From NCBI GenBank assembly GCA_964036195.1, contig OZ038453.1:24266352-24330351 (forward strand): a stretch of 64,000 bases of DNA, in the 5' to 3' direction. The DNA comes from Sphaerolaimus hirsutus (taxonomy: Eukaryota; Nematoda; Chromadorea; Monhysterida; Sphaerolaimidae). The notes below the pieces were generated by a model. The model saw only the letters and a program-made list of their open reading frames with translations, was not told where the DNA came from and did no database searches. Positions 774-51,537 of this stretch are shown in pieces; positions within the stretch are counted from its first letter, which is position 1, and every line of letters starts with the position of its first letter. The translations under genes were made by a program, and so were the position numbers.

Positions 774-1000
774 CTGGGGGCAGTTCCAAGCCCTGTAAAG
801 TGTAATGTAAAGTGTCAAATGTAAAGTCAAATGCAAAGTAAAGTGTCAATCAAAACAAAAAAAGAAAAGATTTTATTACTGAACTTTGCATGACAATTGA
901 CAGTTAACTTTGCATTTGACTTTACATTTGACACTTTACTTTGCATTTGACTTTACATTTGACACTTTACTTTACACTTTACAGGGCTTGGGACTGCCAC
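774..1000 (-). mobile_element. Introner-like inverted-repeat element C
   Basis: This 227-bp element has ends that read, on the minus strand, GTGGCAGTCCCAAGCCCTG at the 5' side and TTGGAACTGCCCCCAG at the 3' side, so GT and AG splice signals lie in its inverted repeats. The interior is repeats of a TGTCAAATGTAAAGT-like unit. Flanking frames on the minus strand fit a phase-1 intron (TCA-G before, AT-GTG after). The flanks lie inside a TA-flanked transposon, so whether they are coding is doubtful. Confidence 0.5.
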
Positions 1001-1482: not shown

Positions 1483-3060
1483 CCACACTCCTCCTCAAAG
1501 GGTGGCGGTTGATATGGAGCTGATGTCCTTTTGTTCAGTTTGTCTTTTGTCTGAACACTGCCACTATAAACCTTCCTTGAAGAATCCCTCTTTCCCATAC
1601 CCATTCCATCATCTGCAAAGTAGCACTTATCCATGCACTGGGTGTAGCCAGCTTTTTCCTCTAGTTTCATTCTGTATTGCCACACTTTGTTGCCTCCATC
1701 TGGGGGGTAATCGGCGGTGGGGATAAACCCTTCAGAAGCGGCTTCTTCAGATGGGTAGCACCTGGGGTTTGGGGATTTGTGGGTGTGCGAAATGTGTGAT
1801 TGGAGCAATTATCATAATTCTTAGATGATGTTGACATATGAGAATTTTGGCACACATTAATACTATCGAAATAGAAAAAATGTATTATTGTCCTTGTTAT
1901 GACAAAGACTACATGTTGAAGTTGTCTTTTATGGATAGTGGTTCATATGACACAACCACATGTGGGGGTTATTTTTTCCTTACTTGGCTGGCGGGGGGTA
2001 CCATACAAGGCGGGGGGGGGGAATAATCAAGGATTTACATATTTTTTGTTGAGTAATTTTTGTTCAGTAATTACATGAGTAATTTTGTTTACCGCTCACC
2101 CAGTTTTGCCTTCTTTCAACAGGGCATTTGTACATTCATCAACCTTCAAATTGCTCTCTTTCATGCATTTGTCAGCCACATCATTCACTTTCTGAATCTC
2201 AGCATATTTTGTCTGTTTTCTGCACTTTTCTTCACACGGTGGCAGTGGGTAGTCATAATTTGGGAATGTGGGAACAGATTGCTTTTTAATACACTCCATT
2301 TGTGTGCTGTTGGTGCAAATGCACAGCTGTAATTTTGGAGACACCATGATTTTTGGTGATGGTGATAATATCGTCATTTTTAATTCCTGTTCATATTTAC
2401 ATAGAGCATATTTTCAAGTTTTATGCCTAACTTTTGCTCGGATTATGCCTAACTTTTGCTTGGATTATGCCTAATTTTTGGTTAGATTATGCCTAATTTT
2501 TGCTTGGATAACGCTGCAGTTTGTGGCACAAAAATGCATGAACTTTACACTAGCTGTGCTTGGATTATGCACTAAAACTGCTTGGATTATGCACAAAAAG
2601 CGCTTGGATTGTGCTTGATTTGATTTTGGTTTTTCCCCCTTCAAGGGTGGCGCAGGAAAAATATTATAAACTTCAGTAATCAACTAAAGCACAAAAAGGC
2701 TGTAAAAGCACTAGAAAACAAACAACAAGAAAAAGCTCATTCACACTGCTCACAAATTTGCGAATTTATTTTTGGCATTAGGTATTGCCTGTTCATTTTT
2801 TATATTTTTTTATATATTTTTTACTTTCTGGTAACTAACCGGGAGCAGGGGTGGGGGTGTAGGCTCTGTAACACTGCAATCAAGTCTGTGGAAAAATCAA
2901 ATTGGGTAACAAAACTATGGTAAATTAGAAATGGGCAACTGAACTGAATCCGCGAACTCACTCAGGGACCTCCTTGGCAACACATTTGCAGTGGCCCTTC
3001 TCCCCCCATTTCTTTTCTACTTCTTGAGTACACGTTTGCATGTCGAAATTGGCGGCGCAA
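1483..3060 (-). CDS. Cysteine-rich multi-exon gene, copy 1 (partial)
   Basis: Three exons were read by eye on the minus strand: 2962-3060 (99 nt), 2100-2326 (227 nt) and 1483-1761 (279 nt). Each has consensus splice sites: donors GTGAGT, GTGAGC and GTATGT, and acceptors ending ACAG, ACAG and CCAG. Exon 2962-3060 encodes a short module ending in HCKCVAKEVPE. Exon 2100-2326 begins LCICTNS and carries a CEEKC then KC...DEC cysteine pattern. Exon 1483-1761 has QCMDKC and ends FEEECG. The last two exons join in phase 2. The first ends in phase 2 while the second starts in phase 0, so at least one exon between them is unseen. No start codon, signal peptide or stop was found, and the family is not recognised; the cysteine spacing suggests a secreted or extracellular protein. 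Near-identical exons recur at 49.9-51.5 kb and diverged ones at 29.7-47.5 kb, which supports these exons being real. Confidence 0.6.
2420..2610. repeat. 22-bp tandem repeat around GGATTATGCCTAA
   Basis: Four units of about 22 bp (TATGCCTAACTTTTGCTTGG type) are followed by degenerate units containing GCTTGGATTATGCAC. It lies in the intron between the first two visible exons of copy 1. The copy at 50.86-51.07 kb has one extra downstream unit. Confidence 0.7.
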
Positions 3061-3084
3061 CTGTGTTATGCATGGAAAGTTTTT

Positions 3085-10416: not shown

Positions 10417-11313
10417 GATTGCATGACATTGTGCTATCACCAAGCCGGAACGGACATTGTGCGGCAGTTGGCAGAACTTCAAAAGTCCTGCTGAACATCA
10501 ATTGGCCTTGGCTGAGCGTTGGCTGTTGATTTGCAGACAGCATTGTGCCAAAGTCACGGCACTCCTGTCTACATCCTGGGAGCGGTTCTACGCTCACGCG
10601 CGGAGGACACTGGAGTTCTGACAAGCCTGTCAGGATTTCAGGCAGCTTTCACCAGTGTTTTGGCAAGGTGCTAAACGCTGGGCGGCACCGGCATTTGACA
10701 AGGAGTCATTGTCGGACGGTGGTCAAACTTTAGCTGGATGCTCCTGGACATCCGGACGCCAGTGACCGCTCGCACGTCCTTCCTATGCCAAGGGAGGGTG
10801 ACCTGATGGAGACAGGATCGCCACAGAGCCACGCTAGAATCAGAAAGTGCACCAGAGTGCACAGAAACGTGTCACAGGTGACACGGCAAGCGCAGCACTG
10901 CGCACAGCGGCACAGGAGCCGCTCAGGAAAGCAAGTGGCCGGCGTGGTCACGGGGCACACAGGCGTGCCAGAAAGAGCGCCAGAGCGCTCAGAAAGAGTG
11001 TGTACAGACCCTCTTTGGGCGCACACTGCTGGGCAAATAAATTGTTTATTGTCCAGGTGGATTTGACCGGTGTGTTGAAGTCAACGCGTGTAAACAATCA
11101 CGTCAGGGGCTTTAGGAACACACCTGGTGCCAGTGCAGTAAAGGTCAACGCGTGAGAACACGTCAGGGGCCTGTAGGACTGCATTGGTATTGTGCGTGGC
11201 ACAACAAATCCGTAGTGCACAGAGCACTACACAGAAAGACGCAGAGAAGCGTCACAGGCGTCACAGGAGACACACTATAAAGAGAAACAGTGAAGAAAAA
11301 TTCATCAGCAAAA
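10417..11313 (+). other. BEL/Pao untranslated leader
   Basis: About 900 bp lie between the primer-binding site and the first gag methionine. The stretch is rich in CACAGG/GTCACAGG motifs, with a repeated AACGCGTG...CACGTCAGGGGC segment (11080-11175). No convincing coding frame is seen. Packaging signals would be expected here but cannot be identified by eye. Confidence 0.6.
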
Positions 11314-18600: not shown

Positions 18601-20019
18601 TTCCTGCAACATGTGGTCAGAGAGATGACTCAGGCACAATTTGCGATTGTATGGCATCAGCTATGTCAACTTCGCAAGAACCAGCTGGACATGTTGACTC
18701 AGCTTTTCCGTATCGATCCAACATTGGGGATTCGAGCCATGCTGGGAAGACAGGATGTTCATGCAGAATGGGCTGGAGAAGCAATTATGTTTTGGGAATG
18801 CAAGGAAGTGCAGCCATACATAATTTATCAGACAGGAAAAGTGGGAGAGACATGTTACAAATACACACCAATGAGATTGGACAAAGACGGGCCCTTGTGG
18901 TTCAAGAGCCCAGGCAGCAGAGACTTGGTGGAGAAATCACCAGAAGAAGACTGCAGCCACACCACACCGCACCTGTACAGAAATGAGCATGGACAGTGGA
19001 AGTCTGCACATGGAATGGTGCATGTCACAGAGACGCCAATTGAAATGACATGGAAAGGACAGTGGCAGGCCTTCACGTTTGACGCGCCTCACCTGTTCAC
19101 CAACATTGTCAACAGAGCGACCAATTTCATGGATGTCAGAGGCCAGATTCAGAGACTACAGAGTTTGGAGCATGTGCAGAACCAGTTGATCGATTACACA
19201 GCAGATATGTCATTGGATCCCAGAGTGATCAGAAATTCAATAGAAGGCATTGGAGCTGGAATTGGACAGACAGCAGCAGGAATCGGCAAGGCATATGGTC
19301 ACTATATATCTGGAGTGTCAAAAGGGTACACTAACTTTATGGGAGGAATGCTGAAAGGACCCTTTCAAGTGATCATCAACACAATCGCAATACTGCTGGG
19401 AATCACAATCCTGGTAGCTGGAATCGTAGCTGCAGGATACCTGTGGTACAATTGGAGAATTGCCACAGGGAAGCCAGTGATTCCACCATGCGTATATACA
19501 TGCATATGGAAATGCATAGTGTGTCCGTTCAAATGCATATGGCTATGCTTCAGAGCCATCAGATATACTATCAAGAAATCAACTCAGAAAGAGACCAATT
19601 ATCCACAAAGAAAAGTACGCAAGACAGAGTTGAGACCAGCAATCAAGAGGAGAGCCAGATCCAACTCAACACAGTCCGTCAGATTTGCCAGGAGAGCAGA
19701 AACCGAGGACAGAATGGCAAAGTCACTATCAGCATACGTTCAGCCAGATGAAAGTTCAGCTGATGAGGGACAAGTCAGAGCCAGGAACAGAGACAGTGTT
19801 CACATGCCTGATATCCGCAAATTCACCTCACGCGAACGCGCAGGAAGCGACACGGGCAACTACTTGCTTCATCATCAGGCTAGGTCGGCGTTGGCATCAC
19901 CAGCAACCGGACCTACAACTTCACGCACGCCCACGACTTCGCGCACGACCACGTTCACCACCGAGGCGACTGTGGAAACGCCACTCATCACTTTGGCGCC
20001 CACCACCACCAGCATGTGA
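12664..20019 (+). CDS. BEL/Pao pol plus env-like polyprotein
   Basis: A long open frame in the same frame as gag runs to a TGA at 20017-20019. Counting residues from the ATG at 12694: a zinc knuckle at 10-23, an aspartic protease DTGS at 153-156, and reverse transcriptase with ADIEKAF and the active-site box YVDN at 596-599 (second aspartate replaced). RNase H follows with FVDAS near 779. The integrase has an HHCC finger near 1142-1185 and catalytic D1215, D1277 and E1338. An env-like region starts at a hydrophobic, signal-like stretch near 1598-1618, contains many cysteines, has a predicted membrane span near 2227-2250, and ends in a basic and serine/threonine-rich tail of about 190 residues. 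The ATG at 12694 lies inside the nucleocapsid and is probably not a true start. The domain order PR-RT-RH-IN identifies BEL/Pao. The env class was not determined. Confidence 0.9.
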   Translation, partial: CLRCLQKGHYMNQCQFTRSCFYCKSNRHHTAVCPEKFGDNGNGNAGRQIPAFRANGQQNGQQSVNNGRKSVPTVGRPAQSQQRKATVNCVTVEEAGPEVVETETISSTVVTEPNTKQQNMSVNLSVNRNMSMLMTARTVIEASEMDTEMEPEQPPLQIQAFLDTGSQGTYMSEKVAKKLNLKSTGEHHIQVYTFGNEKPHYKVVQQVEFRMWLRNGQKVDMVADVVPTLTTEQVKVPVSEQDEKYLQKYFPDESYFADRIPKEKGTECKFKPDIIVGLNYFWDLMSRNTSTTRLPSGLYVIPSELGLLMGGGQLTSNRNQWTTDGAYPVVVNTIVHQIQREKWYEEAPLSIAPVPNVKDMDRLDTIGIMDQPDLVEDDEAIKQFNESVQRNPDGRYSVKFMYKPNLHELPDNKAMAFKRFRYLTNRLKRDPELLEKIQAIMKAQEEQGVIEKVQKDIMDGRKFHILPHQPVITPEKTTTKVREVYDASAKPPGMPSLNECMYRGPVILPQLVGMLMRFRLHGIALVADIEKAFLQISLQDSDRDVTRFLWYKDPTKPSMEDNIQIYRFARVPFGIICSPALLALTVRYHLNQAGTENAKLIDENLYVDNLILSVDTEQKAIELYQESKVLFTEAQMNLREWNSNNKSFTWQLAESDVAKEIVTTVLGMKWDTESDQMWLKTPKTVQQSQLSETDQEIKLPTKRTVAKVTAGCFDPMGLVSPVLLPAKRFLQTLWHSGPSAKEWDTPLSEEQTAIWQQLETELLKVGQIKFNRNLNYQSGADAQLHIFVDASAMAYSAAAYICQKTENNSGTSSLLYSRLRLAPKKPEVTIPRLELLAMLIGSRMSKFIHKELKDVKFSQTVVWSDSTCCLKWLTTAKPLACFVKNRLDEIKKIQSETENMHIRHIAGLENPADMATRGMNMSELEGSNLWWKGPEWLMTGEWPEPKVEPVTPEVMAEIKKEELKFPKASPIYLGATQQVVSDPDASNVQADESKQSNPLGIEIQRFSSLTKLLDATVYVMRFVRQMHKKRSRNDSQNGLSEIMESICGTIKPQGIISIEEREIALRYWIKVTQQNHYKGVAEILTTSHSKGSQNGKKTAADQQLIKWLNVQMHQDGILKCHGRMEHTDPQEVTVPLILLPATATVTQLIVRNQHEKLMHAGVQHTLAAIRQKYWITQGRRVIYNVTRTCPTCKKLGAKPYQLPPMPDLPETRVQRARPFQYTGLDYLGPVWYKVDKNHRKMWICLFTCMVTRAVHLESVLDMTAQEFLNAVRRFIARCGKPEAVISDNATQFKLTEKVLSTSTDKAINTGKEWSEMVKSGAVQTYCSQQQIQWNMTTPMAPWQGGVYERMVGITKKHFKAAVGHRMLTLQELLTLLPEVEAVINSRPISYIYGDVKSLRVLTPRDFLTGEGQIGAPQFDADKDGEFVPRMDNAAKLQKYWETTQQTLDKFWDLWHQEYIPSLRERTQVTHKHGRLTATQEPKVNEVVLIYEENMPRGAWRMGRIEQLEPSKDGQIRSAKVRTANRNVVSRPLNQLYPLEINSKTMDIPETAVTVKVDLLDPAIVQKHVRNQSSNRDSVSNPAQNPAQRNSASDRVLRSATGKATATTSSLVIGMLCMVLMLTGMSESATLREAYSEVFSRTYVLETSTVRPPSLAAHHGLPPLPSEWPPKSVREMQTYERFKDAIKDHPVEQVISSQSQKYQICTSGRHGHALTVPEEVQCHIPPRNFVKAMKVTLYAQRQIPQKEKAYRCYIRIKEIITHTSFWGAKGITGNFEKYQQVGVVACNYARIHKMFRGTPLVEMEPRVWTTNQTLNVEYSWCCHDKENVVSNFYMEEGTVASLDGKTVISDLQDFSQCRAMMGHCRDHNYGITVWDTENFKHQCAYERIGRFKSEISGQTIIVSKLQAAYSHSNKTKRPIGSECVPGDTYYTDQGGVFIQFDRREDVPVEWAMPGKIVEARESTISGTLYARLDDRNSKFQFLQHVVREMTQAQFAIVWHQLCQLRKNQLDMLTQLFRIDPTLGIRAMLGRQDVHAEWAGEAIMFWECKEVQPYIIYQTGKVGETCYKYTPMRLDKDGPLWFKSPGSRDLVEKSPEEDCSHTTPHLYRNEHGQWKSAHGMVHVTETPIEMTWKGQWQAFTFDAPHLFTNIVNRATNFMDVRGQIQRLQSLEHVQNQLIDYTADMSLDPRVIRNSIEGIGAGIGQTAAGIGKAYGHYISGVSKGYTNFMGGMLKGPFQVIINTIAILLGITILVAGIVAAGYLWYNWRIATGKPVIPPCVYTCIWKCIVCPFKCIWLCFRAIRYTIKKSTQKETNYPQRKVRKTELRPAIKRRARSNSTQSVRFARRAETEDRMAKSLSAYVQPDESSADEGQVRARNRDSVHMPDIRKFTSRERAGSDTGNYLLHHQARSALASPATGPTTSRTPTTSRTTTFTTEATVETPLITLAPTTTSM

Positions 20020-20020
20020 C

Positions 20021-20047
20021 GTTGCTGCAACAACGGGGTGCAGCAAC
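20021..20047 (+). other. Perfect 9-bp hairpin before the 3' LTR
   Basis: GTTGCTGCA (20021-20029) and TGCAGCAAC (20039-20047) pair around a 9-nt loop just after the env stop. The 15 bases directly before the 3' LTR are not a polypurine run, which is unusual for an LTR element. Confidence 0.6.
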
Positions 20048-20062
20048 TTCTTCCGCCCGGAG

Positions 20063-21372
20063 TGTGCTGACCGTGGCAAAATGGATGGATAAAGAAATAC
20101 AGAGATTTGATAATTAGGCTCATATTTATCTATTTACCTATTTGCACTAATTTACATTTCATGCATCATATAAACTTACTGCAAATTGTATTTTCTACAC
20201 TTATTACGTATCCATGGAGAATATTCGATTAGGAAAGTGTTCTATAAGTTATTGATATGTTTATGAGGAATATTTAGGTTAAAAAGTCAAATATGTTATT
20301 ATTAGGTGTATTAACATAATATTAGGCTCATTCAACTCGCCGTAATTTTCTGATCATTATTATATATACATTTACATGGTTTACTTGCAATTTGGGAAAG
20401 TCAAAAGTTGTAAATATTTATGTGCCACGTATTTATTTAGGCCAGCGTCCTAATAGAGAAATAGTGCCCTGTGTGTAACTAGCATTTTCTGTGTGAATTT
20501 ACGAAGCCCTTCGCATAGGCATAATTATTATAACCCTGCTCATAAGTTATATTATTTTTACTTTGACATTATGATAAATACCCTGCTCAGATTATACCAT
20601 AATATCATACAAACCCTGCTCAATTATTATACTCATTTACTTGAATAAGTCCCAATTTACCCATTATTCAACATACGTTTCCAGGAAGTGATTATTATTA
20701 TTATGTTGAATATACCTTATTCTATTTACGTCATTAGGAACATTTACACCACTATTTACAATTTCCAAACCCTATTTTATTAGTTCCAATGTGCGTCAAT
20801 GTTTTCTGACAAATTGAACCAAATTAGTAAATCGGCCGAGTTTGCCGACTTCGCGCCTCGTAAGATTAATAGTTTTTCTATTAACCCAATTTGTACCTGG
20901 TATTTCTTTACCATAAGTATTTGAATGTATGCACGCATAGAATAAGCCAACTGTTTCTGTCAAATGTGTCTTATTGTTATATTTGTGGTTTATTTGTGCA
21001 TTTGTATTAGGAAATTACTGTAGCTGTTTTTCTATACATGATTTCCGTGTCTTAGCTACTTTGGAAGTTTTTACTTCAGTCTGCGGACCCCAAGCTACTG
21101 AACGAAAATAAGCTAGCGATAGAAACTTCGATTAGGAAGCTCGCTAGACTTTGCGCTTTTGTAACACGCTGTATCTGATCGAAATAAAGTACCTGAAACG
21201 ATTCGAACCCCCTTTTTCAACACACAACTACGAAATAAACTCAACTTGGCTGTCGACAAGTGGACGTTCGGCTACAACGGGAAATCAACCACTCTAAAGG
21301 CCGTTTCTCACTACGGTCTTGAAGCAGCCGGATTCGGTGGTAGAAGACGCTGACTTCGGTGGCTTCATCACA
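20063..21372 (+). mobile_element. BEL/Pao element 3' LTR
   Basis: This 1310-bp copy of the 9089-10398 LTR starts TGTGCTGACC and ends CTTCATCACA. It is followed by GGGGT (21373-21377), the right target-site copy. Whole element: 9089-21372. Confidence 0.95.
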
Positions 21373-22347
21373 GGGGTGGTAATTCCCGATATGACCGTTA
21401 AAGTCACCTATTAATAGGGATGGGTTACCATTCGCAGTATTCTCGGATACTTGTTTTGAGAGATTGGAAAGGATAGTTTCGTTCCCCTGCATATAGTCCC
21501 TATTCCGTGCTACTTTCCCAGCATCAAATAGGTAAACTATAGCAAGCATTACGAATGTAGATGATTTGTTACATCGTAATGTTAGCCACAAAACATTTTC
21601 ACAGGTTTCCCAATAATCACCTCCCAAGACAGAGCATTCAATGGTACTTTTTGTGTATACCGCTATTCCACCATTGCCATTAACTGGCTTCATGATGGTA
21701 TTTAGTGTATACCCAGGAATATCAGGCAGATGCACCTTATGTACTGCATTTGTCTCACACAAGGCGATGCAATCGTACCCCTTTGAACCTATATTTTGGA
21801 GTTGTACATGTTTGTGCCTGATTGAGTTTACATTTTGATAAAATACTGTAAACTCAGTACCCGACCTTATATTAGAGTCCCTAGACGGGTCGACATGTGA
21901 TGGATTACCCGATACACGGTTACCATATTGTGTCATATCGGTTTGTAGAGTATCGACATGTGACACGTAATTGCGCTGCAAGTGGACATCTCCACCCAAT
22001 TTTGCCATACCCCCAACTTTGTCCGTGTGTTCATTATATACTGGCCTCTTTGTATTATACTTGTATTCAAAGAACGCCAAAAATTGACCTTGGGCGGCCA
22101 TACACGCAAGATGACACGCGTCATAAAACACGCTTAAGGGCAGCAGTTTTCGAATCGGGCGGAGTAGATGGCAAAACATACGGAAACTGTGTCCTAAAAA
22201 TATGAATCGATATATTCTGCCGAACCGAAGGAAAATTAATAAGCACCGAGAATGTCTGAAAGATCTGGCAATGTAATTTAATCTATATATTAAAGCCACT
22301 TCCCCTTTCTGTTCGGTTCTTCTCATTAGACGCCAGTGCAATCGCAT
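21373..22347 (-). pseudogene. Non-LTR retrotransposon ORF2, 5' part: APE-type endonuclease
   Basis: This is the N-terminal half of the LINE protein. After about 150 poorly defined residues comes the endonuclease core: FYQNVNSIRHK, then ALCETNA, and LIGDFNGHIG just before the break. These match the Mg-binding and catalytic blocks of apurinic-type endonucleases. The frame is interrupted at 21378 by the BEL/Pao element. Leaving out the element and one target-site copy, the two LINE halves are in the same frame, so the LINE looks intact apart from the insertion. The start codon is uncertain; the ATG at 22345-22347 is the first in frame. Confidence 0.85.
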
Positions 22348-22622
22348 AAACCAAACACAGTGCCAAATACTTCAAACACAGACGTACAACACTGTATGGC
22401 AAGACCTCACACAGGTAGGCATTAATTAATATATTATATGTGATTACTGTAATGCCCTTTCGTAGTGTAGGATCAGAACAGTTTGCCAGCTTCCCGTGTG
22501 GTGTCACGCCATAATTAAATTTGGAGGAAATTAAACAAAAAACAATCACCACACCGCAACCGGAACAAAGTAGGTGTAGCAGTTCGCACCTTCTGAAACA
22601 GAGGTGCACCTGCCTAACCGCC

Positions 22623-25600
22623 CTAAGCAACAGATCTGGCCCCCTTTTTATTCGCGGTAGAAGTACCAGCCTTTGCTGCTGCCGCCCAGCGGACGTGGGC
22701 CCCCACTTCGGCCGCCGCGACCACGGCCGCCGTGCGCTCCGCGATTTTGACCGGCATTGGCTGCCGCGGCACCCCGGTCGGAGCTGTGAAGGTGGGGAAG
22801 CTAGTTTTTGGTGATGATGACCCTGGATTGATTGTGAAACCAGCATACCAAATATACAACTGTATGCACAGAACACAATTAACCCCGCAAAACCGTGCCC
22901 ACCTGGACCGGTTATTCTGCTGCAGGCTTCCTCGGCGCTCGGATCCACTTCCAACCGAGCTATTTCGGCTGCCGCCGGCGCCACGAATTTGCGCCGCACC
23001 GCCAGCTCCGCGCCCGTACGGGAGTCCGCGAGCACCGCGTCCACGTTTTTTCGAACTTCCTGTAAAAGTACATAATCTTGTGTGGACATGTCACCAGATT
23101 CAATACTACCTTTACACGTCATTAACATGACAGACCTCCTTCGCCCTGTTGAACAGGTCCGCCAGCAGCCTTTGCCCCTCTTTGCAGAGGTCGGGATCGG
23201 TCGACCCGCACATCTGGCGCCACCTGAGGTGAGGATGATAATGTTGATATGATCAGAACAACATACGTATGACCTGCAACATCTATCTCTAGCGCCAATG
23301 AGCGCTGTACCCTGTTTCGCCCACCTGGCTAGCGTTGGAGCGCTGTAACCTTCCAGCGCCAGTACGCAATCCCGGGCCAATAGGCGACCCAAAAACGTCT
23401 CCCCGTACTTGCTCAGGTGGATGCCGTCTGTGCCTACAATCCCTTCATATAGGCGCATTGTGTCCACACCCACTAGGTGCGGAATAATTGCGGATTTTTT
23501 GTTGCGCAGCATGTAGTTCAGAGGCTGGGTGATGGTCACACCAGGTATATTGGCGCAGACCCGTGACAATGCTGATTCAATGTCTCTACCCAACCTCCAA
23601 AGCACAGCCTCTGCGTACGCGTTGTGCGCTACACCCTCTTGCGCCGGAAAAAACGGCTGGGTTACGCAGCACACAATCGGAATGTGCGGCAAGCCTTGGT
23701 CAAACAGAATGAAACGTAGTTGTAACAGCGCCACGTAAACATTCCGCACGAATTGGCAAATGCCTTTTGATTCCCCCGATTTAGCTACGCAAAACGCGGT
23801 GTCAATGTAGTCCAGTATCGATTTCCAGACCACAATTTTCACCTCGCTAAAATCAGCCAGGGCACACGCACCTTTCATAGTCGCCATTCTACACCCTGTG
23901 TAGCAGGTCGCTATGGTTGACACAGACACCGTATTCGGCAAATGCGCCGCCTCCGTGTGGACGACACTTTTACGTAAACAGTCCAGGAGTGGCACTCTCA
24001 CCGATTTAGCAGTGCTGTCGCCTAGCAACCACACGCGCAACGGTACAAAAGCGACTGACACGCCTAGCCACCCATCCCGCGGTCCCGTATGGTCCTGGCC
24101 ATACTTGTCGTCTCGCGAGAACTTATCAGAAAAGAAGTTTGTGGGTAGCGGCGTTAAAGACCATACAGGCGCTTGCCAGGTCACCGGACGCTTCACATCC
24201 CGCTGCAGGTATGGTATTAAAGGCAAATACCTATGGCAAAGGTTTAATACCTATGGCAAAGGGTTGTCCTCATAGTCAAGATGAAAACGCTGAATCACCT
24301 CGTTCTCCATGTCCACCACGCCGTCATCTGCGGCCTCACCCGCACCTTCCACGGGCTCTACCGCAGCAGCCGCCGCGCCGGCGGAACTGGAGGAAGACTT
24401 CCCCTTGTTGCGCTTGTTGATGGTCTGGTTCCACTGGTTGACTGCAATGGTGGGTATGTGTTGAGATATCATGGATAGTGATGATCGGGAATGGCGAAGT
24501 GGTTCAGGACATATTGTATAGCGTTTAATAACACTCTCCCTGACCACATACTCTACTATTTCCCCATCTTCTATCTCCGATTCTTTGATACCAAATTCAA
24601 TATATTTTTGAATATTACGTATCGTTCTCCCCCATTTTGTATTGTTCCCTCGTGAACTATGCAAGCCACCCAGCCTACCTTGGTGCATGGCCTTCGCCCT
24701 CTCTTTGTGCGCCTCGAGCCTAGTGCCCACGGTCCACATCTGGTCCGACTCAAACACCACGAACTCGGCATTGTAGGCCTGCTCTTCTTCTGACGTAAAT
24801 GTCAGCGAGGCCATCTCCGGGGAGGCGCGCACTTCCTCGAGAGCCAGACCGTACATATTCATGTTCCGGCCGTCGCTCGACTTCGTCACGCCATCCCACA
24901 AAGTTTTATTATAGCCGTTGCCGAGATAGCGATGCGCGCGCGCCGCATTGTGAATCTGCCGCGTCCCCGTGAGTTTCAAATACATGGCGAAGGCTTTGTT
25001 CCCCTTGACGCACATTTGCAAAACTGACACGAGGGAGCGGTAGGCAGGTGTACTGCGCATCCGAGCAGAATCGTCGGAAATTGTCTTATCGTACCATGTG
25101 ACGGCTTGATTGTCATCGGTATTATCGTAGTACAATTTCCACTGCTCGTTGCGCCACTCCGCCCAGCACTTGGCCATAACACTGGGGGCCATCGGATCAT
25201 ATTCAATATACGATATGTTGTACCGTATGGCTTCTTCTTTGAGAGCCGGCACGCCCAGTGTTTCACCTTTGTGCCAGAGCAGCGCGCACATAATGCACTT
25301 CCAGCGTATGCCAAAGGCCAGGAAGTCAGTCCGATGAAAAAAGGACATTGGATCCTGTGGCTCGGTGCTACTCAACATAAAAATGTTGTTCACATTGGCC
25401 GTCAGGTCGACTCCCTTGGCCTGCAAGCTGAGTTGCACTCGCTCGACCATCTCTCGCTGCACTTTTAATTCATCCCATAATTGGGTTTGCATGCGCTGAG
25501 ATTCGAGCTGCATCGTCTCAACGATCATGGCCTGACCCAAGTCGATCTGCCCACTTAAATAAATGGCATGCTGTAATTTAGCAAAGATCTCCTTGGATTG

Positions 25601-26725
25601 GCCCGTGAACGCACCCAGGGATTCGGCCTGCAGGGGAGTGAAATAATGTATAATATGCGTAGCTAATAATTTCCGCAAAGGGTCAGTAGAAGCTTTTTTG
25701 CATAGTTCATACCTCATCTCCACACCCCGTAACATCAATGTAGTTAGGCCTACTTTAGCATACAATGTTTTAAAAGAAGCCGAAATAATAACCCCGGTTA
25801 CATTTTCAGGATTTTCATTGTTTATAATACGATACAACTCAAAATAATCCTGTAAAGGTGGCACCAAAGAGATAGTAAAGAACAATCCCCCCATGCCACT
25901 CACATTGATCGGACCTTTGGCCAACAAGTCATCCATCAAGCGCATTTGCTCAGCGAGCTCAGCGTACTTCCCGGACCGGGACTCGACCAGAGTGTTGACG
26001 AACGTGACGCGCTCACGTGGTGTCATGGTGCCAAACTTGGTCTTCATCGCCACCGTATCCGCCGCCGTCATGGCCGGTGACGTGGTCAAGCCCTCCGACT
26101 CCGTGTCCATGTCAGAACGATTTGCGATGAAGCTTTTTTCGTGCTTCGTTTTGTGCGACAAAGCCTGCATTTTCGCGATTTGGTAATATAACACCTTATC
26201 TACAGGCCGACTTGGCTCAAAAATAGCTTCACAATGCTGCAATAAATTAAACCACATGCGAACTACTAATGAGATTTTTAACGCTGTAGTTTGCACCGTA
26301 AACGTAGCTCTCAAATTCAGCCGAAATTTACCTTGAGTGGGTTTTTTGTGATTTTAAAAACGCACTCCTGAGCGTGTATTGCACCATTGCGAATCAGACA
26401 AACCACAATATCAAATTCACAGATGAAACCACTCTCAGAATTAAAACCCGAACCCAACATTATCTGACACCTGGAACTGACAATATAATGCCCCTCACCA
26501 GATGCCAGATAATAATCCCACGGCCCCACTAACCGTTGTCGCGGTGCGCTTTTTTGGACCTCCGCCCTGCACCGTGCACCCTTTACTCGCCAGGACACGA
26601 AAACTGCCCGATTTACGCCCCGACCGACGTAACGGCTGCGATTTTGTGCCCTCAGGGTCTTGGGAATCTTGAGAGGTGTCAACGAAACCGTCGTTTTCGT
26701 TTTCCACCTCTTCAACGAGCGCCAT
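22623..26725 (-). CDS. Eight-exon gene with SGNH/GDSL-like hydrolase domain, 979 codons
   Basis: Exons on the minus strand: 26534-26725, 25904-26236, 24679-25627, 24299-24441, 23325-24202, 23136-23223, 22903-23059 and 22623-22822 (TAG stop). All introns are GT-AG (donors include GTGAGT and GTAGGC; acceptors CTGCAG, TTGCAG, TTACAG). All seven junction phases agree and give 2940 nt, 979 residues. Exon 1 is acidic then basic (SQDSQDPEGTKSQP). Exons 2-3 form an unrecognised helical region. Exon 4 has a serine/alanine-rich linker. Exon 5 has LLGDSTAKS near its start and DGIHLSKYG near its end, which fit SGNH blocks I and V (Ser; Asp-His). The last exons are alanine-rich and basic. The donor of exon 6 (GTCTGT) is the weakest. 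Esterase domains are known in ORF1 of CR1-like LINEs, and the LINE ORF2 starts 276 bp downstream, so this may be an intron-bearing LINE ORF1 or a separate gene. Confidence 0.75.
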
Positions 26726-27540
26726 GTCTTCCTATGTAAGTAAAAACCATAATATGTCTGAATTCGGCCATCTCGATTCAGTAGACAAAAGAAAAATTTC
26801 CGAAATTTTCGATATCGTGATATGTATACATCACATGAGTCATCGGAATTTTTTGGATCCACAATTTTACACGCCAATATTTTTACATCGAGTAAAATGA
26901 ATCTGCATAAATATTTACATACGTATCCTTTAAACCCTTTCACATTTCCTTCTGGGTACTGCAATATATGACCCGAGGAGTATGAAACAGCTTTTCGGAC
27001 GTAGTGAATGCATCCCAACCGACGGTTCCCACCGGACTCACCAATTCGAATGTGAAGAACCGCCGAAATTTCCTCGCCTTTCAACCAGAGCACTCGACGT
27101 TTAATTCCTTTTCTCCGGCGATCTGGAATATATACGCCAGAAGTCGAAATGCAATACAGATTTCTAAACGAAAACCTCTGCTTGTAATTAAAGTGCCGCA
27201 TTGCGATACTTTGTAAACACTGATTTTCATAGAATTTCTCTTTTACAGTGTTTAAGTCGACTTTACTTGAGGTAACAATCGACTTTTTCACATTACGTGA
27301 TAAAGTTGATGTATCACTTTCAGATACATTGTAACTTCCAAGGTATGTACCACACTCGTACGTATCTGCCAAAATTACGGTAATAATTGCGTACGTGCAG
27401 AGTTGTACAATACCTTGCCAATAAATGGCGGACATTTTCTTGGCACTGCTCCAGCTCCCTTTGAGCGGTGTTTTTACACCTTGGATGCAGACCATATATG
27501 TCCAGAAGCTTTAAAAAACCGGCCCGAGTCACCAGCGGTC
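26726..27540 (-). other. Upstream region of the SGNH gene
   Basis: This would hold the promoter and leader. A 392-codon open frame (27495-26317) crosses it in a different frame from exon 1 and runs through exon 1 and intron 1; it shows no domain and is probably chance. No clear TATA box was found. Confidence 0.35.
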
Positions 27541-29708: not shown

Positions 29709-32700
29709 CCACACTTTTCCAAAAATGGTGGTTCAAGTAGACCAGTATCAGGCCCTGCGGGCACTCCCAGTCACTGTAAAATGCCTTGTGAAATGTCAAA
29801 TGGCCTGTAAAATGTCAAATGTCATGCAAAATGTCAAAGGTCATGTAAAATGTCCTGGAAAATTTCAAATGTCATGTAAAGTATCAAAAGTTATGTAAAA
29901 CACCCTGTAAGTTGCAAACAACCTTGCCCATTGACCAATGCTTTTTAGATGACTTTTGACACTTTGTTTGACATTTGACATTTTCCAATGTATTTTACAT
30001 TTTTGACACGTTGCATGACATTTGACTCAAATGTCATGCAAAATGTCAAAGATCATGTAAAATGTCCTGGAAAATCTCAAATGTCATGTAAAGTATCAAA
30101 AGTTATTTAAAATACCCTGTAAGTTGCAAACAACCTTGCCCATGGACCAAGGCTTTTTAGATGACTTTTGACACTTTGTTTGACATTTGACATTTTCCAG
30201 GGTATTTTACATTTTTGACACTTTGCATGACATTTGACATTTGGCATTTTCCAGGGCTCTTTACGTGATTTTTGACACTTTGTTTGACATTTGACATGAC
30301 ACAGGGCATTTTACAGGGTCTGGGACTGACACCTGGCGGCGACGCCATTGTTCGCTCGCTGGGATCACTCGCCATTTCATCCATGAAACATTGATAAGTA
30401 CACTCGCTGAAATTACTTTTTTCGTGCAACTGCCATGTGAAATCATTCACTGCATAGTGACCAAGATCCACATATTTGTCGGGGTTGAAGATTCTTGGTT
30501 CAGTGTTCATACAGCTGCAAAATTGTGTTTTGTGATTTTGTGTCAACCTAACTTACATGTGGTTACCCCCGGGGGTTTTATTTTTCATAGTGTAAATTTT
30601 GCGGGTGGTTCAACCAGGGAAGGGATATTTCGAGGGGTCTATTTTTTGTCAGAAATTTCCGTGAAATTCATACTAAAGAATATCTTTGTAAGTGCCTAAA
30701 ACCGGTAATCAATATGTCAGAATATGATACATTAGACGATATCAACGTATTCACATATACATTGCATATACATTATGTACATATTGACATCATTCCAAAT
30801 GGGGGCATTTCGAGGGGGTGACTACGAGGATACACGATAAATACAAAATCAGAATTTTTGGTGGGTAATTCGATGTTTGGGCAATCCCGAGGTAAATCAA
30901 TTGCAAAATCTCACCCGTTCTGGCCCTGTTTTGTTTGCTCCAAAAGGCACTGGTCGATTTCTTTGATATACTCATGTTGACACTTTTTGACGGCATTGTC
31001 CAGTTTTCTTATCAATCCACCATCTGCGCCGCTTTTGTCAACACACTTGTCAAAGCATTGATCTTCTGGGGGCAGTCCCAGACCCTGTACAATGCCCTGT
31101 CAAATGTCAAATGTCACGCAAAGTGTCAAAAGTCATGTAAAATGCCCTGCAAAATGGCAAACTGCAGTTTGTCATATTGCAGGGCATTTTACGTGACTGT
31201 TGTCACTTTGCATGACATTTCACATTTTACAGGTCATTTTGCAGGGTCTGGGATTGGCACCAGGTTCAGAAATGGAATCGCTCCACCATTTATTCGCAGT
31301 TTTCAAACACTCCACATGTGTCGGATTGCTGCAGTCGCAGTCGGGTACCTGGGAATTTTCTAAGGCTACGTTTACAGCTATTTTGTGACGACTCAACAAC
31401 ACTTAAAAAGTACAATAAGTTGAGTAAAAAAGTTCCATTTTCATGAGAAATAGTGGTCAACTGTACATTCTACCCTAGAAGACAGTTACCCGATTAGTGA
31501 TGGAAAGGCACCGGGGTAGTGATGGAAAAGCGCCATGGCGCTGGCGCCTGGCGCTAGCGCCAAAGCAAAAAGCGCCATGGCGCTTTTGGCGCTTGGCGCT
31601 AAAACGCTCTGGCGCCATTGGCGCTTGGCGCTGAGGTTTGAGAAAGCGCCATGGCGCTTTTGGCGCTTGGCGCCATTTTCTGGTGGCGCTATTGGCGCCT
31701 GGCGCCGGCATTTTAAATGGCGCCAAAAAAGCGCCAACCATGATAATCAAAAATTGTTATAATACGGGGAAATCGACACTGCAGTTGATTACTTTTGAGG
31801 CAACTGAATAAATATTGATTAATATTAGGGTAAACTTTATATAAATAGATGTGAACATCGAATAAAAGCAGAGGTGTTAAAATCGCGGTAAATCCCCTTG
31901 TATGCTTTGCTCCCAATTCTTTCTTGCAGTCAAAATCAGGGGTTCAGTCTGGCGGGGGTTAGAAGGGGTGGGGGGGTTACCCCCAACAAACGCTCCGGCT
32001 ATCTATCTATCCCCGGTGCCGCTCAGCTATCTATCTAACCTGATGGTAAATTTTAGGCTACTATCGCTCGAGCCCCCCACCCCCCCCCCCAAATCGACCA
32101 GATATGTATCTCTCCAGAGCGATTATTTGAGAAATTTTGCCCTGATTTAGTGGTTGTTTGAATGGGCAAAAGTTGAATAGACTACTATGACTTCAGCGGT
32201 CCGTCACTCACAGTTATGCACTCATTTTTCTACCATCAAATTGTAGAACAAATTTTTTTGGCGCTGGCGCTATTGGCGCTTGGCGCCATCACTCTCTGGC
32301 GCCATTGGCGCTTGGCGCTGAGGTTCAGAAAAGCGCCATGGCGCTTTTGGCGCTTGGCGCCATTTTGCTCTGGCGCCATTGGCGCTTGGCGCCGGGGTCA
32401 GAAAAGCGCCATGGCGCTTTTGGCGCTTGGCGCCGAAAGCCTGGCGCTTTTTCCATCACTACGACCGGGGCACCGGTTCTCCGGTGCTGGGCACCGAAGG
32501 GCACCAGCACCAAGGCTGGTGCGGTGCGGTGCCATTTTTCGGGGGTGCCCTGCCAGTGCGGTGCCTTTTCCATCACTATACCCGATACCGGGCGACAACG
32601 GCAACGTTTTCAAAATGTCTATTAATCTTGAGCTACGAGCACAATTCTGCAATTTGACATGCATATTCGCCTAGGTAGAATGTATAGTTGACCACTTTTT

Positions 32701-40228: not shown

Positions 40229-43200
40229 ACAAGTTGACATAACAATTTATTCTTTGGTAGAAATCAATACTTATTATGCTTATTGGATCACTGATGGCTC
40301 CACAGTAATTCTATTGCTATTTACATAGCATTATAAAGTACTGCCACTTGTCTGAAGTTTGAAAAATGGGGTCATTGGAAAAACAACATTTTTTTCCATC
40401 CCTATGCCCATCTACACAAACATCAGCACCCCCATTTTATAGGCAAGTGACAGCAGCAGGGGTCTTGTGGATTTGGACCCCCACAGGGGTTTGTATAGAT
40501 AGTAAATTGCTCCTCCAGAGCATAATTACTAAGAACGTTTTTTGGGGTTACAGGGTTTCAATAGATCGGCTTTTCAAGGTTTAGAAGGTGAGTGAAATTG
40601 AATTGGATATAGGGGCAAAATTTCTCAAAAATACATCCAAAAATTTCTCGAAGATTTTTGTTTTGGGTGGGGGGGTCCAGGGGATGGTACCAAAAAATTG
40701 TCTCCAGTTTCTTAAAAATAAAAAACGTTGTTTAAAAAAAAACGCAAGCATCGAACCATTTTTTAAATAAAAAAACCTTGTTTAAAAAACGCAAGCATCA
40801 AACTGTTTTTTAAACTGGGGTCGTTGAAAAAAACAATGTTTGTTCCATCTCTACTGCTGGATAGATGGATAGAGTTGGGCACTTTTTGGGGTGGGGAAGT
40901 GAACCCACACCCCTCCATTGTAGAACCCTGCCAGCATAGATAGCTGGAGAGTTCGAAGGGGGAAATAACCTCAACCCCCTTTACTAGACTGCTCGACAAC
41001 AGAGTGAAAAATTCCATCAACTTTCTACTTGAATGTCACATGACTGCATACACAGTTCACATGAATATTTATGTCTGTGATTATTGAGTCGAGACTAATA
41101 AAGATTTCTATTGGCCAATAAGAAACAGTTTTAATACTCACATAATGTTCAATTGGCATAATGTTCAATTGACAACATTTTCACAATGTTCAATCTTCAG
41201 CACCTGTATTGATGACCACACTCACATTCTTCCCCACAATGTTCCACGCGCCCGATTCCTTGTTGGGTGGCGTGTGTAGACAGAACACAGTAAAACTCCC
41301 GGACCCTGTAAAATGCCCTTACTTTTATTTTTTATCGGATGTTTGACATTTTATGGGGCACTTTAGATGACTTTTCATACTATGCATGACACTTGACATT
41401 TTACAGGGTGCGGGAATGACAGCCGATAATGGAATTATTTAGTGTCAACTTTCCGTTTTCCGTTTCCGCTTTTTAGAGCCAAAATATCTATCCCACATTT
41501 CAGGGGTCCGAATAGGGGGGGGGTAGTGTTGGGGAACCGAACCGACCCGAACCGAACCGAACCGAACCGAACCGAGAACCGAGCACTATTTTGGAACCGA
41601 GAACCGAGAACCGGAACCGACCTTGAGAACCGAACCGGAACTGAGAACCGGCACTGCTACCCAGAACCGAAGTAAATACCCGAAAAAAACGAAATTTTCA
41701 AGGAATCTTAAAGTTTTTAAACAGCGTTTTGTCAACACCTACGGAATCTAAGCCTTTAAACAGCAGCTGAACATCTTGGTGCGTGTTCAGAATTGCAAAA
41801 TTCATCTGTTTGCAAAATAATTGCGCGGGACATTTCATGTACACTCCAGTGATATTACACCTTACAATTAAATCTACCATATCCCACCTGAATAAAAGAA
41901 CAAACATAGAAAAATTTCATCATATTTATCAAATGTTTTTGATAAAGATGATGAAATTTTTTTATGTATGTTCGTTTATTCAGATGGGATATGGTTGATT
42001 TCATTGTTAGGTGTAATGTCGCTGCAGTATACACATTATCACTGGTAGTAGTTTTCATTGGTTTTGTGGCAGTTTTAACCATAGTTGGCAAAAGTTATTT
42101 ATGTTTGTACTCAAAATGATACGCGTACTCACTCGCATACTACATAAATACATTTACCTTTCCTCCAGAAAAAAATACCAGTACTCATTTACTTGTGTAC
42201 TTTTTTAAAGTACGCGAGTACAGAAAATGTTTTATTTTACACTTTTTTAAATACCAGTATTATTATAACAACTCTGATTTCTGGGCTATTTACACAGGTC
42301 CCGGCCGGGGACCGGGACCCGGCAAAAAATAATTTTTTTTAAAAATGAATAATTGGCATGTATGGGTTGTTTGCATGTCAAATAGGTGAATTATCACCAA
42401 ATTAGCATGCACAAAATTTTTGCGAGACGGTGACATGCGCTGATGCAAATTTTTTTTTTGGGGGTGTATAGTTTTTTCGATTTGTCTGAATTTTGGCATG
42501 TGTGTACTCCTTTGTTTACTGAGTACACATGCCAAATTTCAGCTCAGCACCGTTAACGTTTATCATTTTATTCACACTTCAATTTTTTTCGATCACTATA
42601 TTTTTGTATAGTGATCAAAATTCTGCCGGGGTCCGGTAGGGTGTCAAATTTCCGTTTCCGTTTTCCGTTTCCGCCTTTCTGCAGGACAATTTTTTACCTT
42701 ACCGTTTTCCATTTTCCGGCAGCCGAAAAAATTTTACCTTTCCGTTTTCCGGCAGCCAAAAATTTTTTACCTTTCCGTTTTCTGTTTTCCGGCAGCTGAA
42801 AATTTTTTACCTTTCCGTTTCCGTTTTTCCAGCCCATTTTTCCGTTTTCCGGCTGAAAAATTTTTACCTTTCCGTTTCCGTTTTACCAGGCCATTTTTCC
42901 ATTTTCTGGCTCAATTTTCAGTTTTCTGGCTTTTTTCCATTGTTTTTCCAATCTGTATTTATCTTCAATTGGCTCATCCCATTGTGTTGTTTTTGTCTCT
43001 TGGATCAGCATTGACAACTGGGATTTCAGGGTCAGTGAAACAGGTGCTGTGAACCCAATTGGATCATATGCTGACACCAATAATTTATTCAAGTTTCATC
43101 TGGTTGGTGTTGTGATGCTGTCAATTTGCAATTTTGGTGTTGATATTGCCACTGCCAGCATGTCCGTTTGGTGATTTTATTTCATGCCCATTACTGCAAC

Positions 43201-46200
43201 AATTTTATTCACCTTTGGACTGTCGTTTTCTGCTATTTCATTCATGACTGATCTGGAGTTTGACAGCCATTCCCTCATGTTCATAGAACATTGGTTAAAT
43301 AAAGCTTTGACTTTGTAATATAGTTCTAAAGCTTCAACTTCATTCGTGACACTCATGATGAAGTTATCGACGTAAATGTTGTTTATTATCATCGCTAACT
43401 GGTTTTGTTCCCCTTCATTTTCTTCATATTCATTCATGTTGTTTATTGTCACATTTAAATGGTATTTTATGACTGCTCCCAAAATTGCTGGGCTGCAGAC
43501 AAGTCCAAACAGTGCGCGTTTTTAAAACGAAGTACTATTAAGTTATTTTCAGTTACTGGTTTTGAGGTATCTTTCAGCCAGAAAAATCGTGTGTAGTCTC
43601 TAGCTTGGTCATGCAATCCTATTTGAAAAAATGCCTTTTCAATATCGGCAATTAATGCTAGATTGCCTGCCCTGAACCTCATGAGTAGGCCCAGTATTAA
43701 TGGTGTTGTAATTGGTCCTCTAAAAAAGCACTTGTTGAAACTGGGCTTACCTGCCGACCCGTCGTACACAATTCTGCATGATGTCGATTTGCCTGGCATG
43801 ATTACTGGCTGGTGTGGCAGGTAATGAATCCCCTTGTTGTCTGTTTTGTCATCACAGATCTCAATTATTCCCTTTTCTAGTTGGTCATCCAAAACTTTCC
43901 AGAATTTTTCGAATAAGTTTGGATCTTTGTTGAATCTTCTTATCAGTGATTTAAACCACACCAAGGCTTCTGCTTTTCCCGTGGGCAGGTAACTGATACT
44001 CTCTTTATATGGCCAATCAATATAGTATTGTTTGTTGTTGTCATTGAATTTTATGCTATTTATTATCATCTCCTCTGCAATGTCGTCATCAATTGCATAG
44101 GGGTCATCAGTAGTGATGTAAAGGCACCGGGGCACCGGTGCCCCGGTGCTGGGCACCGAAGGGCACCAGCACCAGTGCTGGTGCGGTGCCATTGCAGTTT
44201 CCAGAGGTGCCCTGCCGGTGCCGGTGCCAATTTTTTCACGATAGCACCGGTGCCGGTGCGGTGTGGTGCCATTTTTCGAGGGTGCCTTTAGGTGCTGGCA
44301 CCTGCTGGAAAAAGTGGGGCACTGGGAAAGGCACCAGCAGGATTTCAATGGTTTGCAATATGCCACTTTCAGGATGTGCGTGTGTACACTTAAAAAGTGA
44401 CGCAATGTAATGCACGTTGGAACGTGCCTGCGATAGCTTTTTGTGCCATTTTTTGTGCATTTTTGTGCCATATGAATAATTCCCCAATCCCGAGATAAGA
44501 TGGGTCTATAAAACGTTGTTGTTTTACATGGCAGATCTGGCAGCTAGAATTTGTAGCTCAATCACACATCCATGTCTGGATCGTATTGGATGACTGAACA
44601 CTTAAAATGATCGGCACAACGTCTAGATTCCATTTCGGAGGTTAATGATGTCTTTATTCGTCATGCCGATTTGACTGCTTTTTCAGCACGAAAAATATTT
44701 TTTCTGAACATGATATCATATTTTTGTGTTGAAAGGTTGGGTCAAATCAGCATAGGGAATTTAGACATCCCTAACCTGATCTTAACAATGGTATCTGCAG
44801 ATTGCGTTGATCACTTCAAGTGTTCAATGGTCAAAATGCTTAAGATATCGCGAGTTAGTGAGCTCCAAATTCGATTAGCCAGATCAGGCCATGTAAAATG
44901 AACACGACCCCCCTTATCTCGGGACTGCGCAATTATTCAAGGAAATAAAATTAATTGGGTTGTAGCCCTGACCCTAAACCAGAACAGCATCAAAAACAAC
45001 CAACGTACTACAGAATGGGATGTTTATATCTCAGCAGAATCTGATTATACATTGACCGCTTTTTTATCACCAAATTTTTTTCAGAATGGCACCGGTGCCG
45101 GTGCGGTGCGGTGCTATTTTCTGGCCGGTGCCCCAGGGTGCCAGGTGCCCTTTTCATATGATATCAGAGGTGCCGGTGCGGTGCGGTGCCATTTTTCCCG
45201 GTGCCGTTAACATCACTACCTATGACTAGGGTGTTAAAAAAAAATTTTTTACGGAAAACGGAAAACGGAAAGGGTAAAATTTGAAAGCTGCCGGAAAACG
45301 GAAAACGGAAAGGGTAAAAATTTTCATCTGCCGGAAAACGGAAAACAGAAAGGGTAAAACAAATTTATCGGCTGGAAAACGGAAAACGGAAAGGGTAAAA
45401 AACTTTCCTCCGGAAAACGGAAAGTTGACACCCTACCTATGACTGAACTGTTGACATTTTGCATGGCATTTGGCGAATTTTTATCAGGTTTGACAAGTTT
45501 GCATAAGGTTTGACAAATTTTATGACATTTGACACTTTACTTGACACTATACAGGTCCGTGAGTGGGACTGTTACCTAACCATTGTTTTTTCTTCATTTT
45601 TACTAATTGTTTACTTTTTTTTCAGGGTTTTTGACTGAAAAAATGTGTTTGTGAAGCATAGGAAGTGGATATGCATCGTGAACCATGGGTGCAAGGTGTA
45701 ACGTCAGGGTATAAATATAAAAGATGATTTACAGCATAATGACAAATAGGAGCTGAAGCAACAAATTCAGTGTCAACAAACTACAAATACTCAAGAACGC
45801 TTAGAGATTTCCCAAATTGACATGTTGAAAAGCAACCGATATCTACAGGGTGTGGCAATTTAGACGCCGCCTCTAGATTTCAAATAACTTGTCACTGGGT
45901 TGTCGGATTAGGCTATTCACACAGGCAAAACCACCAGGACCCGGCAAATTTTTTGTTTGAAAAGTGAATAATTGGTATGTATGGGTTGTTTGCATGTTAA
46001 TAAGGTGAATTATCACCAAATAAGCATGCACAAAATTGTTTTGAGACGGTTACACGCGCTGATGCATTTTCTTTGGGGGGGTGTATAAATTTTTTTGGAT
46101 TTGTCTGAATTTTGCCATGTGAGTACTACTTCATTTCGTGAGTACGCATGCCAAATTTCAGCTCAGCGCGGTTATCGGTTGTTATTTTTTTTATACTTCA

Positions 46201-48444: not shown

Positions 48445-48972
48445 ATATGATTGCATGTTCAAAAAAATTTTTTTTTCATGTTCAAAAACTGGGTCAAATT
48501 GACATACGGAATTTGGACATCACTAAACCGACCACAAAAATAGAATCTGCAGGTTGTCCCGATCATTTGAAGTGTTGAATGATTCAAATCAGCCCAGAAA
48601 TGGTTGAGTTATTAAGCTTCAAAGACACTCATCCAGATTGCCCATTTTTTTGTATATTTATTGACCATCTTTTTATTTACCCCACTTATCTCGGGCCTGG
48701 GGGATTATTTGAGCAAACAAATAATTTTCGTTGTAGCCCCAGCATCAAACCCTAACATACCCAAACGGCATCAAAATTGGGCAAGGGACAAGAAATTGGG
48801 AAGCAAAAAAGTGCAGTGGACCCCCAGCCTACTGTTTCTCTATGTGTGAAAAGTCTCAACTATTCTGCACGGTAGTGTATATCAAGAAATTTCAAAGTTC
48901 ACCAAAATAATTCATTTTCTCAGTGTAGACAATGCAAAACAGTTTGAGTGTGTATTTATGTGTATTTATGTA

Positions 48973-49658
48973 CCGTAAATTCTCTAATTGGGCGCCAGGC
49001 GTACTATTATTTTCAGCACATTTTTAGGGGGTGCACTATTGGAGATGGCGTATTATTGGAGACTGATGCATATTTTTCCGTCAAATCATAAACTTCAATG
49101 TCAACATAACTCAAATGTGAGCATCACATTTTAAAGCGATAAATTTCGTAAATAAAAGTACCAGTAAAACAGTGAATGACTGTGGCAAAATCGGCTACCT
49201 AATGATTCAACGATCGACACATCTGGGGGCAGTCCCAAGCCCTGTAAAGTGTAAAGTAAAGTGTCAAATGTAAAGTCAAATGCAAAGCAAAGTGTCAATC
49301 AAAACAAAAAAAGAAAAGATTTTATTACTGAACTTTGCATGACAATTGACAGTTAACTTCGCATTTGACTTTACATTTGACACTTTACTTTGCATTTGAC
49401 TTTACATTTGACACTTTACTTTACACTTTACAGGGCTTGGGACTGCCACCTGAATCAGACGCATCGTTACTACTTTTTGATGCATAGTTTTTTACTTTTT
49501 CTCTGGGTGTCGCATTATTGGAGAGTGGCACATTATTGGAGAGTGGCACATTATTGGAGAGAGGCACATTATACTTGCACAACGTGTGCAAGGGTCAAGG
49601 GTGGCTATTGGAGAGGACGCATTATTGTAGACCTGGCGCCTGATTAGAGAATTTACGG
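48973..49658. mobile_element. TA-flanked inverted-repeat element, copy 2
   Basis: Duplicate of 523-1227, with TA at 48971-48972 and 49659-49660, carrying the shorter 18-bp array (about 49510-49572) and introner-like element C' at 49223-49449. Confidence 0.6.
49223..49449 (-). mobile_element. Introner-like element C', duplicate of C
   Basis: Same 227-bp length and same GT...AG ends as 774-1000; the 3' arm is TTGGGACTGCCCCCAG. It arose by segmental duplication, so it is not an independent insertion. Confidence 0.5.
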
Positions 49659-49913
49659 TATTCCTTAATTCAAACAGAAATTGTGAGCAATGTCATCAAT
49701 GCAGGCATAAAACTATCAATTTTGGCTGTGTGTGCATCCCTTGATTGTTTCTGAAATACTCAAAAGTACAGAGGAAAAAGTGTGCATACAGATGGGTACA
49801 TGTGCAATGAAAGTATAGTACCCATGGTCAGTATGCAGTTTTATGCATATTTCAGAGTAAACATAAATACCCACTATCAACTCAGTAGCCCAATCACAAC
49901 AAACAGAACATAC

Positions 49914-51513: not shown

Positions 51514-51537
51514 CTGTGTTATGCATGGAAAGTTTTT

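Follow-up and report, generated by a model that had tools for sequence, protein, structure and literature searches.

A transposon family with CWG flanks that probably behaves as an introner in the nematode Sphaerolaimus hirsutus

Results

The interrupted gene and its surroundings

The window, i.e., the whole 64,000-nucleotide stretch of DNA from the nematode Sphaerolaimus hirsutus that was analyzed, carries on its minus strand a cysteine-rich gene, in which exon 2 is split by the intron-like element A and exon 3 by the intron-like element B (Table 1). The lengths of the exon pieces are those given by the first-pass annotation, and its claim that the paralogous exons have no introns at these places holds for the exons close to the window's start as well as for their further copy at about 50 kb. 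These two copies of the paralogous gene, together with the elements C and D, are carried by a segmental duplication of 96.7% identity (window positions 1-5370 and about 48445-53834); they differ by five substitutions in exon 3 and two in exon 2, no fewer than in the flanks.

Several other elements are found nearby. A BEL/Pao retroelement occupies about 9630-20770, with repeated flanking sequence at both ends; its 2451-aa ORF combines pol domains with a region that matches the Monjiviricetes fusion glycoprotein family (E 1.8e-15), and a BEL/Pao protein of Plectus sambesii is among its best named matches. The minus strand carries a LINE-like element, recognisable by the reverse transcriptase domain (E 3.5e-30) of its 972-aa ORF (6237-9155), and four adjacent ORFs of 376-700 aa (21241-27510) that stay below the Pfam cut-off, the best match being Exo_endo_phos (E 0.0013).

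Table 1. Elements and exons in the window; positions refer to the window unless an assembly contig is named.
Feature	Position	Strand	Remarks
Element A with 3' CAG	31066..31260	-	Intron-like GT...CAG; 192-nt element plus 3-nt copy of the putative TSD; 5' flank CTG
Element A in the 348-Mb host assembly	C4:24297417-24297611		
Element B with 3' CAG	29755..30332	-	Intron-like GT...CAG; 575-nt element in which 212 bp are directly duplicated; 5' flank CAG
Exon 2 of the cysteine-rich gene, part before A	31261..31348	-	88 nt
Exon 2, part after A	30915..31065	-	151 nt, then donor GTGAGA
Exon 3, part before B	30333..30514	-	182 nt
Exon 3, part after B	29709..29754	-	46 nt, then donor GTGAGT
Paralogous exon 2, uninterrupted	2100..2326	-	Copy near 50.5-50.8 kb
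Paralogous exon 3, uninterrupted	1483..1761	-	Copy near 49.9-50.2 kb
Element C	774..1000	-	AAGCCCTG-like subfamily; CAG on both sides; oriented like the neighbouring gene; no exon established
Element D	49223..49449	-	Copy of C in the 96.7% segmental duplication
Element E	41290..41422	+	Diverged relative (end mismatches 5 and 7); its letters give GT...AG; no established exon

Structure and ends of the elements

On the minus strand, the junctions of A read ..AACCTG, GTGCCAATCCCAGACCCTG...CAGGGTCTGGGACTGCCCCCAG, AAGATC and those of B ..CCGCCAG, GTGTCAGTCCCAGACCCTG...GACTGGGAGTGCCCGCAG, GGCCTG. The sequence letters and a TIR profile confirm the ends, the coordinates and the strand of both inverted-repeat elements with their GT and CAG ends as annotated before. 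The profile finds both ends of A, B, C and D at 0-4 mismatches and none at up to five mismatches in 20 draws of first-order Markov sequence. A forms an intron-like stretch of 195 nt, the body of which is nearly a single palindrome with two 99-nt arms that are 86% complementary, and folding of the RNA with its flanks gave z-scores of -13 for A (200 shuffles) and -24 for B (20 shuffles); a search of Rfam resulted in no match at the gathering score. The element ends coincide with GT and AG in A and B; family-wide, 492 of 797 copies end with CAG and 305 with CTG (see below). The earlier description is refined in one respect: the flanking 3-mers, CAG/CAG for B and CTG/CAG for A, would represent CWG target-site duplications (TSDs). 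The idea that the 5' CTG of A is a mutated CAG was dropped since CTG flanks are common.

Other relatives are present in the window. The orientation of E, whose strand is listed in Table 1, is not assignable by the rule used for the family (a T as second base in just one of the two ends), and a diverged, one-ended relative lies at 45420-45580, its minus-strand end being GTAACAGTCCC.

Reading frame and splice sites

Removal from GT to AG yields an open frame in both exons, with both junctions in phase 1, as had been stated for this gene, and retention of either A or B would bring in stop codons. After removal of A, residues 4 to 80 of the 80 residues of exon 2 align with the paralogue (tblastn E 3e-8), the only gap, of two residues, lies downstream of the junction, and the spacing between the same two cysteines is identical (18 and 18 residues); the corresponding alignment of exon 3 is weak (E 0.02-0.03). 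The differences between exon 2 and its paralogue amount to 0.54, 0.50 and 0.70 at codon positions 1-3 (74 codons), indicating that the exon has evolved as a protein. Apart from A and B, the remaining frames and splice sites of the gene are intact. A search for a homologue of the cysteine-rich protein outside the genome found none. A match of the gene to Toxin_22 (E 0.17) was below the cut-off and was taken as chance.

Splice sites were scored with a matrix and compared with four host introns. With this matrix the donors score low (A 2.6, B 4.4 vs 5.7-9.7 in the four host introns), the donor of B being the top-scoring one of its region. The terminal acceptors (A 4.5, B 4.2) are inside the host range of 1.5-7.0, and acceptors scoring above them by the same matrix lie within both elements. 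The low donor scores and the better internal acceptors would count against clean splicing of A and B.

A genome-wide family with CWG flanks

A search of the 348-Mb host assembly with A as query returned 2777 candidates at first look, and 40 of these were scored. Patterns for the exact ends identified 797 copies and none in the backwards-read controls; this number is a lower bound for the family because ends and length are fixed in the patterns, it counts duplicates in, and the patterns themselves demand CWG. The family is defined by the GT end GTGCCARTCCC, the GGGG end GGGGCAGTCCC and the CWG flanks. Read with the GT end first, the flank classes (5'/3') are CAG/CAG in 362, CTG/CTG in 254, CTG/CAG in 130 and CAG/CTG in 51 copies, so that 181 of the 797 pattern-matched copies have unequal flanks. 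The 3' flank is CAG in 492 copies (62%) and CTG in 305 (38%), and 413 of the 797 have CAG as their 5' flank, in agreement with a directionless target.

For a closer comparison, 49 oriented copies were taken from the window and from L093-L132 with their flanks, and oriented by the rule mentioned above for E; copies with indistinguishable ends (at least five, E among them) were excluded. The majority consensus of the 45 oriented copies of 170-200 nt is near-palindromic and 189 nt long, and the four main flank classes diverge from it by 5.1 to 6.6% on average. After one duplicate was dropped, CWG is present on both sides in 40 of 48 oriented copies, and the two flanks are identical in 30 of those 40.

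The listed copies fall into two subfamilies, A-like (AGACCCTG) and AAGCCCTG-like (AAGCC; C and D). Three AAGCC copies, all CTG/CTG, have flanks of 39-45% GC and none of them shows a junction-spanning sense frame of more than 58 residues. The excess of CTG/CAG over CAG/CTG (130 vs 51) was considered as selection for AG and set aside, since the subfamilies do not differ: the two classes number 71 and 35 among A-like and 29 and 16 among AAGCC copies (hand counts covering 100 of the 130 and all 51 listed places). Eight near-identical CAG/CTG copies are clustered on contig C9 at about 24.96-25.76 Mb, probably due to local amplification.

Four 10-kb stretches at round-number places contained no paired elements. 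Of 90 stretches from viral contigs only one (L071) matched, over 20 nt, and a further viral-contig search gave no match; the bacterial and archaeal contigs yielded one stretch (L091), with a 25-nt match within a bacterial-looking gene.

Copies within coding exons read GT end first

The flanks of the copies were joined and frames across the junction were sought, in a sample that includes 20 further CTG/CTG copies; 37 coding-looking sense and 23 antisense frames were submitted singly to Pfam. At E<=1e-3, matches were obtained for 18 of the 37 sense frames (4/10, 7/8, 2/10 and 5/9 by batch) and for none of the 23 antisense frames (none among 2, 1, 10 and 10; Fisher 2e-5). As the sense frames were picked by eye, 18/37 is no estimate of the exonic share, and the evidence lies in the contrast of sense and antisense. 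In 14 of the 18 matches the domain spans the junction; in the other four (L093, L101, L107 and one of the copies of L130) it stops there or lies on one side.

The families matched in sense are unrelated and comprise P4-ATPase, GPCRs, amino-acid and sugar transporters, DB module, collagen, ASC channel, BTB, MSP, kinase-like, mitochondrial carrier and E1 dehydrogenase; a cuticlin N domain and a weak Srsx match were also met in junction frames. The DB module, cuticlin N, Srsx and ASC domains, which are typical of nematodes and close ecdysozoans, suggest a host of this kind, as does the BEL/Pao match to Plectus sambesii. Aligned with solved structures, the P4-ATPase frame has no gap at the junction, the match ending 8 residues beyond it, and the natriuretic-receptor frame is gapless there. 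A Na/Ca exchanger frame gave no Pfam match at E<=1e-3; it aligns across the junction to the solved NCX1, with a 2-residue gap just upstream of the junction and none at it. At L130 (G000:C579:2059-6250) three element copies lie within about 1.9 kb, and two junction frames match 7tm_1. One copy (L094) may represent an antisense exonic insertion: its antisense frame is protein-looking with no Pfam match, and the copy's divergence of 2.6% is among the lowest.

It had been asked whether many copies in the genome lie in genes, at GT-AG positions and in sense. The 797 copies and the sense contrast bear out the first and the last part; the second has to be restricted, as 305 of the 797 end with CTG and GT-AG therefore does not describe the family as a whole.

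Copies that end with CTG

A Pfam domain crosses the junction in eight CTG/CTG copies (L103, L122, L130, L141, L143, L145, L147 and L153), all of them GT end first. A 3' CTG would call for a GT-TG intron, or for some other route, if removal is to be exact, and use of the AGs in the 3' part of the element mostly leaves a residue that shifts the frame. These exonic copies present an alternative: they are either removed exactly with a TG end, or removed by a hairpin route, or they mark broken genes.

Among the 40 oriented copies that CWG flanks on either side, GT follows the 3' end in 10 of 13 copies with CTG vs 1 of 27 with CAG (Fisher 3e-6). Genome-wide it follows 97 of the 254 CTG/CTG copies, where 1 in 16 is expected with even bases, and the 5-bp repeat CTGGT is then present at both ends. 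A role of this GT as a splicing signal was rejected, as it is similarly frequent in the AAGCC subfamily (13 of 30 vs 29 of about 70 A-like copies; hand count, C1 to C6:14.95 Mb), whose fetched copies show no clear exon. Being present in both subfamilies, it probably reflects a target-site preference.

Discussion

The preferred reading and its alternatives

The proposal that A and B belong to an introner-type family is supported by the number of copies, their CWG flanks and the Pfam sense contrast. As judged from sequence, we consider it likely (probability about 0.82) that both are members of a non-autonomous DNA transposon family that behaves as an introner and would be removed from the transcript by splicing. 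A PHIS/NuwaI-like transposase would insert the element at a CWG under duplication of 3 bp, with the 5' splice site (GT) coming from the element and the 3' one from the duplicated target. If the downstream duplicate is CAG, removal of GT...CAG would take out the element together with one duplicate and the mRNA would be as before the insertion; the spliceosome would remove A and B as introns of this type. This layout of exact restoration fits A (CTG/CAG), B (CAG/CAG) and the 492 copies with a 3' CAG. As mobilizer, a NuwaI-like transposase is the best guess by analogy, because published NuwaI elements have CWG duplications and TIRs that usually start with GGG. A related autonomous element would be expected to carry a PHIS DDE transposase and a Myb/SANT gene.

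Alternatively, the elements might be removed as long RNA hairpins that are excised and religated by the ligase RTCB, in the manner of SOS splicing, the terminal GT and CAG being incidental. SOS splicing recognises paired inverted repeats. The very stable hairpins formed by A and B with their flanks, their weak donors and the copies ending with CTG in conserved domains would all suit such a route, and a review describes SOS splicing of DNA transposons in animals (PMC13247085). Removal of a DNA transposon from animal mRNA would be common to both systems; in that description, however, SOS splicing figures as a defence that involves RTCB as ligase and a nuclease of unknown identity, whereas the fixed GT end and the sense bias found here point to the spliceosome (PMC13247085). 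A hairpin route should ignore orientation, yet every Pfam-supported junction frame reads GT end first, and this bias argues for a role of the GT and against a purely hairpin-based route, making this explanation an improbable one. In a still less probable reading, A and B would be recent, unspliced insertions that break the gene, the restored frame merely reflecting the exact target-site duplication. The weak donors, a protein for which no homologue was found outside the genome, and the exons of the duplicated paralogues, which are not less diverged than their surroundings (substitutions given above), are in line with a broken gene. On the other hand A and B are both inserted in sense and bounded by GT and AG, the other frames and splice sites are intact, the codon-position differences of exon 2 point to long-term coding constraint, and throughout the genome copies of 5-7% divergence (class average) sit in sense in intact-looking conserved domains.

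Within this gene, gain and loss are separated by the paralogue comparison only. A and B might instead go back to old introns that have disappeared from the paralogue, each of them having received a MITE insertion. However, both ends of the TIR elements coincide exactly with the splice positions, older intron sequence is absent beyond them, and the identical exact arrangement recurs in unrelated genes, which makes this history very improbable.

Beyond A and B, a wider reading can be put forward tentatively, at somewhat less than even odds: a CWG-targeting, NuwaI-like transposon may have seeded hundreds of introns in this nematode, about two fifths of them being GT...CTG, since the target is CAG or CTG with about equal likelihood, and these would be removed exactly by a TG-tolerant spliceosome or by a hairpin-guided route.

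Relation to known systems

The comparisons in this section refer to extracts of the cited papers. In the large survey by Gozashti et al. (2022; PMC9860276), just two groups of animals turned out to have introners. The family resembles them in consisting of repeated, non-autonomous TIR/TSD elements that would create introns in unrelated genes, and the layouts described there include an element-borne 5' splice site combined with a 3' splice site supplied by the TSD; it differs in its nematode host, its CWG target and the 38% of copies that end with CTG. The NuwaI group of the PHIS superfamily has CWG 3-bp TSDs and TIRs usually starting with GGG and has been reported from animals only (Han et al., 2015; PMC4482050). 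The 3-bp CWG duplications of the present family and its GGGGCAG end fit this group, whereas its other TIR starts with GTG instead of GGG, and the published NuwaI families are not described as introns in the extract of that paper.

The introner elements of Amoebophrya share hairpin-forming inverted repeats and short direct repeats at exon boundaries with the elements described here (PMC7789003). However, as far as that extract goes, the dinoflagellate elements show very variable splice motifs and no family-specific inverted repeats, in contrast to a single family with fixed ends. Moreover, tunicates are an animal group with many introns outside of GT-AG, for which introner transposons with weak splice sites are discussed as a possible source of splice-site divergence (PMC13326754); they belong to another phylum, and 62% of the copies in the present family have GT-AG ends. 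A study of nematode introns mentions introners as background (PMC9169325). Among the matches listed in a search of the open-access literature by titles and abstract starts, no paper joins introners and NuwaI.

Introners are a leading explanation of sudden intron gain, and the family would link them to a named transposon type via its target site. The CWG target would give about half of the insertions a CAG acceptor, with the donor brought along by the element, and the CTG half might serve as a natural experiment on whether an animal is able to remove introns without AG.
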